Shown piece by piece: positions 3,032 to 21,484 of a DNA stretch of 21,484 bases. The translations under genes were made by a program, and so were the position numbers. Position 1 is the first letter of the stretch; each line of letters opens with the position of its first letter. The notes beneath the pieces were generated by a model that did no database searches, had not been told where the DNA came from, and worked only from the letters and a program-made list of their open reading frames with translations. This DNA is from a virus. Location: the IMG/VR virus record IMGVR_UViG_3300042691_018852, positions 1 to 21,484 of that record; one strand, written 5' to 3'.

Positions 3032-6000
3032 ATGTTAACTCTCCAGCAGATATTAGAAAGCGATAGTATATCAACGCTAGTCGCAAAACTTAACGCAAAC
3101 TTTCAAACCGTGGCGGCCTCAAATGGTGGCCCTCAAGGTATTCGCGGTTCGCAAGGTATACCAGGATTACCTGGTAAAATGGGACCGACTGGACCGACTG
3201 GTGTAACAGGTCCAACAGGTAATATTGTAGGTATTATTCCTTTTGCGTGCATACCTGGAACAGGACCTACAGCAATAGGCCCTTCCACAACTATAGTAAC
3301 TCCTTACGGGACTGTAGGACCTTGGCCACAATCTGCATGGCAATGGTTACAATACTATCATGTCACAGGTAATCATGGAGACATCTTTATTGACCACGCA
3401 AATGACGGTTATTGGCAATTTCTAAATAGCGTAGATGTTAACGGTGCTTGCGATGGTGTAGGAGGTTATACGCAAGGAGGATTTTATTCATATCAAGGAA
3501 CAGGTGCTTCTTATCCTTACCTAGGATCAACTGGAGGATGGGCAGGCGCAGGCTGGTATTTTTACCCAGTACCTGATTCTATCGATTCTTCAACCGTTTG
3601 GATAAATGATAACACTACATATTTTCCAAGCGTCACATCCTTTGGGACTGGTCCTTATGCGCAAGGACCTTACGAAGATGCATCTTCTTCACCTCTTACC
3701 GTAAACAATGCTAGATTAATAACTAAATACGGTACAATCTGGGTAAGTTCTGGTAGTGATCAAAATAATCCTTCTTCGTTTGAAGATAGCGATTTAAGTA
3801 CACCTACCATTGGACAGTGGGGGCATACTGCTGCTGCTTCTCCGTTGGCATATCCTAATCCTGGTAGAGTAAATAGCGGCGTAGACCGTTTACTATTCAA
3901 GATGTCAATTGATGGATTGCCGTATATGTCAAACATAACAGCAAGAGGGTACACAGGTATAATCGGCCCTTCATTTAGTAACCAGTTTCCTATGGAGGAA
4001 AACGTTACATACCCGATAGATTTAAACTCTGCGCAAATGGCTGGTTCACCTTATTGGGCTAAACCTGGCTACAACGTATCATTTGAAAAATATACACCTA
4101 TACTCTTTTTATCAGAAAGAAGATTAAATGACCCGGACTTTGACTTAAGATTTAGTTCTTTGGGTATTTATATGTTTACTGATACGAGCGTACCTAGTGG
4201 TAATGAAGATAATCAAAATAAGAGTGTATTCTTATTCTCTTCAAGATATTCTCCAGATCCGTTAGAGATGCAAGCAAATGGCACAGATGCACTTAACCCT
4301 CTTACATCAGCAGACACTGAAAACTGGGGGGAACTTTTACTTGATTTTAGAAGAATAATTGCATCAAACCAATATGTATGTTCTGTTCCAGCAGACCTAC
4401 GCTTATCTAGCGATTACATTAGCGACTATTTGGGTAATCCTATATATGAAGAAAACAACGTTGATAATGTAACTAATTTAGATTTTGCATATAGAACATA
4501 TCAAGGTTTCATTAGCGCTATTAACGGAAAAACTTTAACAGGCGCCGATAGCTATGCTGCATACTGGGAATACGGTTTAGGTGACGGTGTACCCGGCGGA
4601 GCTGGCGGATACACTGGAGGTATACACGATGCAGCATCAGGAACTGCAGGCATGGGTACTCGTAAAACTTGGTATGGTTCATCTGTACTTGACATCGATC
4701 CTGCGCTTTGGACTGGATCGCAGGCAAGCATTGGGAATAACAATATGATTCGCGTTGCGGGTATGATGGAACGAGGAAGAAGATTTGCCGACTCTAATAC
4801 CGGAGATACTCATTTCTTATCTGAACTTATTTTTTATTCTTCGCAATTTAAAGCAGCAACATCTTCTCTTGAAGGCGGTGTAGGATTAACAAATGATATA
4901 GTTAGTCCTAATATAAATGAGCATAAAAGTTTGCCTTCATTATACGTTTCCCCATTCAGAAACATTGGTATTGGTACTTTTGTTGGTGATACTGACGCAG
5001 CAAATGATTTAGGGCCTCTTGAACCAGCTGCAAGATTACATGTGCATGTTAAGGAAAACTTAAGAGAAAACGATCCAACATATACTTGGTTAGAACAAGG
5101 AGCCGTTGCAGGTCCGCTAGGAAATTTGCCAAGAGAAACATTTACAGTTGCTGCTTTTAGTGGTGACTTTGGAGTAGCAAATAATCAGTATAACACAGAC
5201 ATATTAATAGGTAACCTAAGATCGCAGAGCGTTGAATATGTTAACCCATCTGCTTCATATTCATCAGGTGATGTAGTTAATCACATGCAAGAAGTCATTG
5301 GCGCAACTGGGTATAACTTCTTGAGAAATGCTATAAGAACAGAATCTTGGAGAAGCTCTTATGTGAATACTTTAAGATTTGGTGTTCAGCCTGGGGTTAC
5401 TTACACAGGCCCTGACCCAGTTAAATACCCAATAGGTAAAAGTCCAGTAAACACATATAAAAATGAATTTCAATTAGCAATTCATCCACTTACAACTGGA
5501 AGCACCAATTCTGAATTACCTGATTCTAATCGTTCTATCAGCGGTGTAGGTATTCATAACTTATATCCTAGAACACGTTTTCACATATACGGTAAAAACT
5601 TATACAATGAAACCGAGTTTGGAGAAGAAGTTTGGACGCCAGGATATTCTATATCAAGCGGAAGTGCTTCTGGGGTTTCGGGATCGTATCCATTCTATGG
5701 AAGTACTGCTCAAAATTCACCGTCAACAAATCAAGTTTCTGTTGACTACATTGGAGATACTTACAGATACCCTGTAGGTATATATGATTATCAATACTTC
5801 GCGTTTGGTTTATCTGGAAGCACTTTAGATACATCGCTGGCTGCTTCTTCGCCTAACGCAGCGGTATATCCTAACAAGGAAATCTTATCTCCTACAAGAA
5901 CATTTACTCCTTGGGGGGCAGGATCTCTATCAGATGAGGCATGGCCATCTACTACACCAGGTGTGACAGTTAATGGCGCTTATCGCCATGGAGGAACTGC

Positions 6001-12487: not shown

Positions 12488-12496
12488 GATATATAG
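12488..12496 (+). promoter_or_regulatory. Candidate phage promoter motif GATATATAG
   Basis: This is the second copy of the GATATATA core, in the 28-base gap after the tail-tube-like gene and about 19 bases upstream of the ATG at 12515. The match to the copies at 3000 and 19858 is exact over eight bases. A promoter role is inferred. Confidence 0.3.
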
Positions 12497-12514: not shown

Positions 12515-12844
12515 ATGCAATCATTTAGAGAATTTAAAGACCCTTCTTTCAAGCCTATCTTTGAAAGCTATGAAGTAGACCATCTTAGCGAAGCAGAGGT
12601 TAAAGAAGCAGAAAGAGTTTACAAAGAGTTGTCTGAACATATCAAGAAGCACGGATTTGAAGGTCTTGACGAAGGTCTTTTAGGAACTATCGTTGGCGGT
12701 CTTGCTGGGTTTGTGATTGGGCCAGCTGTTGGTAAAATCATCGCAAACGCGCTTGGGGTTGAACGAGGTATTCTCTATGATATGTTTACATCAAGATTGG
12801 TTTCTGCCGCTCTTGGAGCAAGCATCGCTAAAAACCTGACATAA
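12515..12844 (+). CDS. Small glycine-zipper protein with capsid-targeting-like N-terminus
   Basis: This is a 109-residue protein. It begins MQSFREF, like the MKxxxEF start of T4 capsid-targeted internal proteins. It has two possible prohead-protease sites of the form (I/L)xE: IFE before Ser18 and LSE before Ala27. Residues about 27-50 are a charged helix. Residues 54-109 are hydrophobic and carry Gly57, 61, 65, 69 and 73, a perfect GxxxG ladder, followed by a second apolar stretch near 94-107. Glycine zippers pack membrane helices and are found in pore-forming and membrane-inserting proteins. I infer a packaged protein that may act on the membrane, for example during DNA entry. A plain membrane protein is the alternative. 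Its stop overlaps the next gene's start (TAATG). Confidence 0.7.
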   Translation: MQSFREFKDPSFKPIFESYEVDHLSEAEVKEAERVYKELSEHIKKHGFEGLDEGLLGTIVGGLAGFVIGPAVGKIIANALGVERGILYDMFTSRLVSAALGASIAKNLT

Positions 12845-19857: not shown

Positions 19858-19866
19858 GATATATAC
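19858..19866 (+). promoter_or_regulatory. Candidate phage promoter motif GATATATAC
   Basis: This is the third copy of the GATATATA core, in the gap after the UvsW-like gene and ahead of the run of small genes. TAGTTTTG at 19873-19880 also fits the Bacteroidota -7 consensus TAnnTTTG, but no clear -33 TTTG was seen and the spacing to the start codon is very short. Either could drive the small-gene cluster; neither is proven. Confidence 0.3.
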
Positions 19867-19897
19867 TCCAAATAGTTTTGATAATCAAATGAGGATA

Positions 19898-20272
19898 ATG
19901 AATTTTTCTGAGTTTTTGGCTGAAGGCAAGAAAGGATTAACGAATGCCGGTACAATCATGCGCTCAGACAATAAGCATATCATCAAGACGGCTATTAACT
20001 TTGCTGACGAAACTCTTGAGACATTGAGAAGACAACTTCTTGATAAATACTACAAGACGGTTGATTCAGAAGATGTGGAAAAACGCGCAAACATTAATAA
20101 GGCAATATCTACATATGTGTACTGTCTTGATAAGAAGTTGCGAATTGACGGTGATATCATGGATCTCTTGGCTAAAGAAGTTGGTCAAGATAAGTCCAAA
20201 TTAATTAAGGATATCACAAAAATGACTGACGAGTTTTACGGAGGTCAAATGAATCATTATGGAATGACTTAA
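19898..20272 (+). CDS. Small capsid-targeting-like protein, first of cluster
   Basis: This protein has 124 residues from the ATG at 19898, or 127 from 19889. The inner ATG is preferred because it places MNFSEFLAEG at the very start, matching the MKxxxEFxxEA shape of T4 capsid-targeting sequences. LAE before Gly10 fits the T4 prohead protease rule (I/L)xE. Purine-rich GAGGATA immediately precedes this ATG, though closer than usual for a Shine-Dalgarno. The remaining protein is helical, charged and free of membrane segments, with a Tyr/Met/Gly-containing end. I recognise no enzyme family. By N-terminal motif and by its place at the head of a run of similar small genes, I infer packaging in the capsid and perhaps injection into the host. 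The mature function is unknown. Confidence 0.65.
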   Translation: MNFSEFLAEGKKGLTNAGTIMRSDNKHIIKTAINFADETLETLRRQLLDKYYKTVDSEDVEKRANINKAISTYVYCLDKKLRIDGDIMDLLAKEVGQDKSKLIKDITKMTDEFYGGQMNHYGMT

Positions 20273-20288
20273 AAATAAATAAGAAAAA

Positions 20289-20621
20289 ATGAAAAAGTTC
20301 AATGAATGGGTAGACGCAGTACGTCAAGCTCAAATGAATGAAGCATCAGAGCTTCAAAAATCTTATCAAGATTACTTTAAAGCAAAACTTTCTAAGTTTG
20401 GTGTTGAGTCACCTGCTGAACTTGATGATGAAAAGAAGAAAGAATTCTTTAACGAAATCACAAAGGAGTGGGAAAAAGGAAAAGGCGTTAAGGACTCTGC
20501 TAAAAAAGATATTGAAGCTGATAAGAAAGAAGCAGAAGAAAAAGAAAAGAAAGAGCCTTCTAAAGATGTAACAGATCTAGGCGGATCTGCTGCTGACAAG
20601 ATGAAAGATCTTACAAAGTAA
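20289..20621 (+). CDS. Small, highly charged capsid-targeting-like protein
   Basis: This is a 110-residue protein. It begins MKKFNEWVDAVRQAQMNEA; MNE before Ala19 could be a prohead-protease site, though Met replaces the usual Leu/Ile. Residues about 22-65 form a helical unit with conserved-looking aromatic positions (YQDYF, EFF, EW). Residues 66-110 are an extremely Lys/Glu-rich, probably disordered tail, reminiscent of the charged internal proteins that sit with DNA inside T4 heads. An A-rich stretch without Shine-Dalgarno precedes the ATG. The gene ends one base before the next start. A packaged role is inferred from the N-terminus; the biochemical function is unknown. Confidence 0.65.
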   Translation: MKKFNEWVDAVRQAQMNEASELQKSYQDYFKAKLSKFGVESPAELDDEKKKEFFNEITKEWEKGKGVKDSAKKDIEADKKEAEEKEKKEPSKDVTDLGGSAADKMKDLTK

Positions 20622-20622
20622 T

Positions 20623-20835
20623 ATGAAAAGCATCAAAACATTTGAAGACTTCTCTAAAGAGAATGTTGACGAAGCAATGGTACAAGTCGCTGGCGATAAA
20701 AAACCGTCAGGCGCAAAGATACTTGCAATGGTAATTGTTGACAAACTGGAATCATCGGGTATGTTAAAACCTGGTGCTAACGTAAATGCAATTAAGGATG
20801 CGGTTCAAACAATCATAATGGAAAATACATTTTAA
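20623..20835 (+). CDS. Small capsid-targeting-like protein, 70 residues
   Basis: This is a 70-residue protein. The N-terminus MKSIKTFEDFSKENVDEA has the shared Phe-Glu-x-Phe core; VDE before Ala18 would be a Val-type variant of the (I/L)xE cleavage site. The mature part of about 53 residues contains two apolar helices (around AKILAMVIVDKL and VNAIKDAVQTIIM) joined by a Gly/Pro turn, so it looks like a small folded helical hairpin. No catalytic residues are evident. It is separated by one base from the gene before and by three bases from the gene after, so it belongs to the same transcript. Confidence 0.6.
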   Translation: MKSIKTFEDFSKENVDEAMVQVAGDKKPSGAKILAMVIVDKLESSGMLKPGANVNAIKDAVQTIIMENTF

Positions 20836-20838
20836 GTA

Positions 20839-21099
20839 ATGAAACATATACCACTATTTGAAGATTTCTTAAATGAAATGAAAAAGCCCAAGTCTTGGGA
20901 CACAATGTTTGCCATGAACGCAATTAAAGATTACGAAGATGGTAAATTTGATCCAGATAATGATGCATCTCTTGCTAAATGGGAAAAAGACTATAATGGC
21001 GGATTTGCTCCAAGGCCAGGTTTTGAAACCTACGACATTATTGCTTATGCTGTAATGACTGGGAAAAAACCTGATGGTTCCCCAATGATAGAAAAATAG
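20839..21099 (+). CDS. Small capsid-targeting-like protein, 86 residues
   Basis: This is an 86-residue protein. It starts MKHIPLFEDFLNEM, nearly the same pattern as the gene that follows. LNE before Met14 fits the T4-type (I/L)xE rule, though Met is an unusual residue after the cut. The mature region is acidic and aromatic (WDTMF, DYEDG, KWEKDY), ending in a Gly/Pro-rich stretch. No family was recognised. It is only a few bases from both neighbours. A minus-strand open frame covers this gene but has no independent support. Confidence 0.6.
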   Translation: MKHIPLFEDFLNEMKKPKSWDTMFAMNAIKDYEDGKFDPDNDASLAKWEKDYNGGFAPRPGFETYDIIAYAVMTGKKPDGSPMIEK

Positions 21100-21106
21100 A
21101 AACCAT

Positions 21107-21484
21107 ATGAAACATCTAAAAACATTTGAAAGCTTCTTGAATGAAGCAAATACATCGTTTATTAAAGACTCTGGCACACTAAAAACCAAAGTGGGAAACC
21201 TAAAGTATACTGTTAAAGGTGGTATTGATGTTGGCGGGTTTCGTAAAGGCGGATATCAAATTAGTGAAGATACTCTCGCCAAACTGATAAATTCGATTGA
21301 TATGCGGGCAATCTCTAAAATTCTTGGGGACAACGGAATAGAACTAGATGCTCGTCCTTCCGAGTTTGAGTTAAACTTAGGAAACGCCGGATTGGGGCAT
21401 AATGGACTATCAGCTATAATTCCTGAAATCGCGTTTCCTGTTAAGTTATCTAAAGATTACCCGGCAAAACATAATGGCTGGGTT
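21107..21484 (+). CDS. Capsid-targeting-like protein, 3'-partial at window end
   Basis: This gene runs off the right edge; 126 residues are visible from the ATG at 21107. It begins MKHLKTFESFLNEA, the best match in this window to the T4 capsid-targeting pattern, with LNE before Ala14 as a clean prohead-protease site. The visible mature part is Gly-rich, with strand-like segments such as LKYTVKGGIDVGG and an acidic ELDARPSEFELNLG stretch. It is probably a globular domain, unlike the short helical neighbours. No motif identifies an enzyme. It starts eight bases after the previous stop. Confidence 0.65.
   Translation, partial: MKHLKTFESFLNEANTSFIKDSGTLKTKVGNLKYTVKGGIDVGGFRKGGYQISEDTLAKLINSIDMRAISKILGDNGIELDARPSEFELNLGNAGLGHNGLSAIIPEIAFPVKLSKDYPAKHNGWV

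Follow-up and report, generated by a model that had tools for sequence, protein, structure and literature searches.

Internal proteins IP1-3 of phage T4 have only their leader in common, and each of them blocks a type IV restriction enzyme (PMC12373910). The leader of IPII and IPIII reads MKTYQEFIAE/A (a slash marks a cut position). Mutagenesis of the IPIII tag assigned residues 4 and 7 to targeting and residues 8 and 10 to processing, and foreign proteins fused to the T4 capsid-targeting sequence (CTS) are packaged, so a basic body is not needed for targeting (PMC9026906). Phages phiKZ and SPN3US also package propeptide-bearing head proteins that are cut C-terminal to Glu (PMC9026906). In this study, a CTS-like tag was followed from five genes of a virus record into the related contigs.

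Tagged genes of the window

The window, which is the whole stretch of DNA analysed, is the 21,484-base virus record IMGVR_UViG_3300042691_018852 (entire contig G000). It encodes tail and fibre genes, a tail tube-like protein, a single-strand DNA-binding protein, a primase, an exonuclease and a UvsW-like helicase. Judged from its sequence, it is a fragment of a large T4-type phage. A near-identity DNA search against the phage collection gave 0 matches. By helicase, the nearest entries of the annotated phage collection were the Prevotella Lak phages and an uncultured phage of 462 kb, whose helicase is 44% identical. Twelve IMG/VR contigs were much closer (65-77%), two of which, G002 (238 kb) and G007 (143 kb), were read in tiles. 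Among the relatives by capsid protein are phages of Tenacibaculum, Flavobacterium and Chryseobacterium, together with Sphingomonas phage PAU, whose host was reassigned to Sphingobacterium (PMC3738902). Because these relatives infect such hosts, we infer that the host of the window phage is likely one of the Bacteroidetes.

The first-pass annotation had claimed five tandem small genes that share a start of the form MKxxxxFExFLNEA, each followed by a possible cut. All five ORFs were found on the + strand (Table 1), and the five cut sites LAE/G, MNE/A, VDE/A, LNE/M and LNE/A are all present. The common form applies to proteins 4 and 5 (MKHxxxFExFLNE), whereas protein 1 is shorter and proteins 2 and 3 are degenerate. 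The strict T4 register [FY]xx[FYW][LIVM]xE occurs in 3/5 genes, and the two degenerate ones keep (M/V)xE/A. The tag is therefore only partly as strict in the window as had been claimed.

Table 1. Coordinates of the tagged genes and associated features in the window.
Feature	Position	Strand	Description
Candidate late promoter of the tagged cluster, GATATATA	19858-19865	+	position upstream of starts
Possible further member, glycine-zipper protein	12515-12844	+	candidate LDE/GLLGT before hydrophobic segment; GATATATA at 12488-12495
Tagged protein 1	19889-20272	+	127 aa; tag MRIMNFSEFLAE/G, 19889-19924; small helical body
Tagged protein 2	20289-20621	+	110 aa; degenerate tag MKKFNEWVDAVRQAQMNE/A, 20289-20342
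Tagged protein 3	20623-20835	+	70 aa; degenerate tag MKSIKTFEDFSKENVDE/A, 20623-20673
Tagged protein 4	20839-21099	+	86 aa; strict tag MKHIPLFEDFLNE/M, 20839-20877
Tagged protein 5	21107-21484	+	126 aa seen, open at window end; strict tag MKHLKTFESFLNE/A, 21107-21145

The start of tagged protein 1 is ambiguous (ATG at 19889 or 19898), and its tag is the shorter T4-like form, FSEFLAE. Its family was found in 12 other contigs by an alignment search, while a single-sequence scan alone gave none. The motif [FY]xx-F-[LI]-x-E/[GSA] is kept in 12/12 of these, so that homologues lacking the tag, which would have spoken against the earlier claim, did not appear in this family. F9 and E12 are invariant in the family alignment (A1), and one orthologue apparently starts with GTG. 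The AF2 model of protein 1 reached a pLDDT of 68, and a fold search with this moderate model gave no significant viral match. The motif of protein 2, FNEWVDAVRQAQMNE/A, is a degenerate form. Its orthologues have (I/V)RE/A or LHE/A nearby, where the window has VRQ/A, with MNE/A a few residues later. The body of protein 2 contains a domain of about 50 aa that starts at residues 16-20 and is widespread in jumbo phages (phrog_28651). This domain (window 20335-20490; LQKSYQDYFxAKLxKFGVESPAxLDxEKKKEFFNEI) occurs in large phages of Pseudomonas, Erwinia, Vibrio and Tenacibaculum, in some of them inside genes annotated as DNA ligase.

Protein 3 has FEDFSKENVDE/AMVQVAG where its orthologue L006 has FDSFIGE/AMVQVAG. 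Across this family the length from Phe to Glu differs, and E/A and the start of the body are constant. Protein 4 has a weak homologue in L003 that is itself tagged. The local matches of protein 5 to L031 and L006 are confined to the tag, and the bodies differ. The mature bodies of the five proteins have pI values of 8.6, 5.4, 8.4, 4.9 and 8.9, three basic and two acidic. With the tight T4-register pattern, 3 N-terminal matches were found among the 21 ORFs of the window against 0.21 expected (P=0.0014). The loose pattern gave 5 against 0.71, one of the 5 being a spurious match elsewhere.

A promoter-like element, GATATATA, stands in front of the cluster. The window has it just three times, in each case 27-32 nt ahead of an ORF on the same strand: the fibre-like one at 3032 and those at 12515 and 19889. 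Of the copies in G002, 24/34 precede a start on their own strand by at most 90 nt, as do 14/17 of those in G007, and the genes downstream there include the protease-scaffold gene, fibre-like genes and other large ORFs. We regard GATATATA as a candidate late promoter of the tagged cluster. The T4 late promoter TATAAATA was also tried as an element in G002 and, unlike GATATATA, was not position-specific (11/64). The gene at 12515 follows the tail tube-like gene, with orthologues in L001, L003, L004, L006, L011, L020, L029 and L037. In several of these, (I/L)xE/G is kept ahead of the Gly-rich segment in a shifting register, and the site is not the canonical tag. The product may be part of the virion and act on membranes.

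Tag, protease and scaffold in the relatives

Searched for genome-wide, the tag proposed from the window extends well past it, in overwhelming excess in G002 and G007. The excess in the window itself is modest, and the case for the tag rests on these relatives. The strict tag was found at the N-terminus of 30/308 ORFs in G002 (4.4 expected, P=9e-16) and of 20/155 ORFs in G007 (2.9 expected, P=4e-11); the ORFs followed a simple longest-ORF rule, which makes the denominators approximate, and the expected counts were derived from the interior frequency of the pattern. G010 had 18 matches against 5.2 expected (P=8e-6), and G012 showed a weak excess (9 against 4.0). No significant excess was found in G009 (6 against 3.3), although 14 scaffold repeats are present. 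On 98 kb of T4, the tight pattern matched IPII and IPIII only. In 42 kb of a Lak phage, read with TAG=Q, no tag was found, from which absence is not implied. Overall, the tag stands far above chance expectation.

To test the register with less bias, N-termini were chosen by their first seven residues only (n=68). The motif [FYW][LIVMT]xE stood in exact register in 56/68, and 9 more had VSE/G or LSE/G 1-2 residues later. The modular spread of the tag is wide: 130 non-redundant tagged proteins fell into 82 unrelated body families, defined by BLASTP at E 1e-3, at which some distant homology may be missed. When the tags are aligned to MKTYQEFIAE, the functional columns of T4 (Y4, F7, I8 and E10) correspond to the conserved Phe, Phe, Leu/Ile and Glu here.

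The earlier reading had proposed a search for a gp21-like prohead protease and a scaffold gene. The 21-kb window fragment itself has no protease, scaffold or major capsid protein (MCP). Its relatives encode the first two as one fused protein. An S77 (gp21-type) prohead protease was present in 3/8 contigs searched (G002, G007 and G008) and in 47 related IMG/VR loci. In a Lak phage it was not found with a simple motif only, which does not imply absence. The complete protease ORFs (614-693 aa) are fused to a C-terminal scaffold-like region, in which most members have YSEYLAE-like heptads in 3-14 copies, spaced for the most part by exactly 14 residues. The fusion in itself is already known, as ORF-300 of Tenacibaculum phage PTm1 is annotated 'prohead core scaffolding protein and protease'. 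The next gene encodes a gp23-type MCP. In 14 phages, its propeptide has a conserved (L/M)NE/ at the end, ahead of a variable stretch. T4 gp23 has FGSFLTE/A at the end of its propeptide. In PAU, which is more distantly related, a cut of the MCP at ALME/N would leave 521 aa, which fits the mature protein published as 520 aa by N-terminal sequencing.

The scaffold units use Tyr and the tags mostly Phe, so the two motifs are similar and not identical. A strict scaffold-repeat matrix ranked only the tag of 19889 on top and missed the Phe-type tags. No support was found for co-variation, residue by residue, of the scaffold unit with the tag in the different lineages: G010 has YSEYLAE in the scaffold and LFENFLNE in the tags. 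The likeness of the motifs and their similar length raise the hypothesis of scaffold mimicry. Because the fusions of most members hold 14-residue tag-like repeats, a tagged protein probably gains entry as the mimic of a single scaffold unit and is cut at a similar site. We further suggest, tentatively and at somewhat less than even chances, that the protease-scaffold fusion is a chain of tandem capsid-targeting units and that each cargo protein is loaded through one such unit of its own. One 14-residue module recognised by the protease would then build the scaffold, address the cargo and release it, and the phage could load dozens of enzymes and small effectors.

Probable cargo bodies and alternative explanations

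We believe that a T4-like prohead-loading system probably operates in these Bacteroidetes-type huge phages, in which the tag is cut off during head maturation and the bodies are head cargo. This agrees with the targeting and cargo function that had been proposed for the five genes, and it is supported by the protease of the relatives, by orthologues that keep the motif and by conserved columns that coincide with the T4 CTS residues. On this view, the products of the five genes would be head cargo, and their N-termini would be capsid-targeting sequences of the T4 type. The tag would dock the protein in the forming prohead core late in infection. The prohead protease would cut after the Glu of (L/I/V/M)xE, and the body would stay inside the DNA-filled head. 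We infer that, after this packaging and cleavage, the bodies are delivered into the next host together with the DNA.

Several tagged proteins of the relatives look like enzymes and not like obvious anti-defence factors. One is a protein of the cytidylyltransferase fold that resembles NMN adenylyltransferase; a LicD domain and a PAP2 phosphatase are also present. A ligase-like body and two further nucleotidyltransferase-like bodies were named from motifs only; the three had no Pfam or PHROGs match, and the ligase-like body had no match in a PDB sequence search. On inspection of its sequence, the KTDG motif of this ligase-like protein (L019; G002 75249-76988, - strand) is split by an apparent intein, and the G007 homologue is uninterrupted. 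For the adenylyltransferase-like protein, the untagged homologue of Stenotrophomonas phage Moby, a nucleotidyltransferase, starts with MNILFPGRFQP, and G002 has MRHVQTFESFINE before VVFFPGRFQP. Since the Moby homologue begins only a few residues past the end of the tag, the tag appears to be an add-on to the bodies. Because T4 IP1-3, which share only their leader, act against restriction enzymes, an anti-defence role for some of the tagged bodies is a reasonable guess by analogy. In G002 174543-181949, several tagged proteins carry DUF285/BspA-like repeats recognised by eye ('DVSxVxDMSxLF'), which would be unusual head cargo.

The tagged proteins might instead be assembly parts of the prohead core, like T4 gp67 and gp68, which are cleaved and consumed without being delivered. 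The tag resembles the scaffold units, several tagged genes adjoin head genes, and some bodies, such as protein 2 and its relatives, are charged and of low complexity. We consider this unlikely, as so many unrelated families, some with recognisable enzyme domains, do not resemble an assembly core, and the tagged-gene content differs strongly between relatives. Another explanation is an uncleaved peptide that docks the proteins to some other target, such as the replication complex, a membrane site or a tail part. Some tagged enzymes could work in the infected cell without packaging. The conservation, however, stops at E/small residue. Over the 82 families the information content is high from Met to Glu and near background from the second residue past Glu. 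The residue after Glu, which lay outside the search pattern, is A/S/G in 52/82 families against a background of 19.5% (P=4e-18), and it is A/S/G in 17/83 of the interior-match controls. The scaffold and the MCP also carry the same motif, and the tag matches the T4 CTS at its functional columns, which leaves the docking peptide improbable.

A shared start could also arise as a cassette at the DNA level that is copied from gene to gene, such as a translation start or a recombination hotspot, with no function of the peptide. Among the first codons, a few (positions -5, -2 and -1) do show increased identity. In the core, codon identity compared with the body was 0.76 vs 0.69 for F0, 0.58 vs 0.70 for F3 and 0.70 vs 0.67 for E6. 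Codons of the core are thus no less variable than those of the bodies while the residues are conserved, and therefore selection acts on the peptide; a DNA cassette is very improbable. A chance likeness of AT-rich, Lys/Glu/Phe-rich N-termini would fit the window alone (P about 0.001) and G009, and is refuted by the counts in G002 and G007 and by orthologues that keep F and E.

If cargo loading through the tag is correct, one short signature would be enough to list, straight from sequence, the proteins that uncultured huge phages probably inject. The 82 families, most of them without a recognised function, would become candidates for host takeover or anti-defence, and enzymes such as a nucleotide adenylyltransferase would be delivered at the moment of infection. 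A repeat scaffold would also make the recognition of the prohead core by the T4-type CTS, a long-standing question, directly testable.

Comparison with known systems

In the open-access literature, we found no paper that describes the tag set or the scaffold repeat for this clade, and no virion proteomics for it. Inner-body and ejection proteins of phiKZ and SPN3US resemble the tagged set in being packaged with Glu-cut propeptides. Their protease is only distantly related to gp21, and we know of no short tag in these phages that is shared and moved among dozens of unrelated small proteins. In PAU, at least 14 proteins share the N-terminal MKTLTxLYE/(A/S), mostly near head genes, and gp142 and gp154 are annotated 'internal capsid protein'. 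The PAU tag differs in its LYE core, and the protease and the putative scaffold of PAU are separate genes. Because PAU (L086, L094) has a tag family of its own, tag families may have diversified alongside the protease. Chryseobacterium phage MA9V-2, a cultured relative, has genes that start with MKNFFSFINE/A and MKTFTYFINE/A, close to those for its head.

The closest likeness is to the T4 CTS and its bearers IPI, IPII, IPIII and Alt, with which the tags share a short N-terminal peptide, the functional columns, the (L/I)xE/ site and unrelated bodies. T4 likewise mixes in-register propeptides (IPII and IPIII) with a longer one (IPI, MKTFKEF...TITE/A). A cut at TITE/A gives a mature protein of 76 residues, the length of IPI*. 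Where T4 has a few tagged proteins, G002 and G007 have about 20-30 each. The tag is usually 13 aa (MKHIKTFESFLNE); some of the bodies have enzyme domains, and many are not basic. T4 IPs have pI values of 9.0-9.7, whereas three of the five window bodies are basic and the tagged bodies overall are not (median pI, 6.6). As with T4 gp21, gp22 and gp23, the S77 protease of the relatives adjoins a gp23-type MCP with an N-terminal propeptide that ends in an xxE site. In T4, gp21 and gp22 are separate and no repeat array is evident in gp22, whereas the relatives have one fusion, which in most members carries tandem 14-residue CTS-like units. Overall, the tag system is of a known kind, T4-type capsid targeting, greatly enlarged and joined by a scaffold with similar units.
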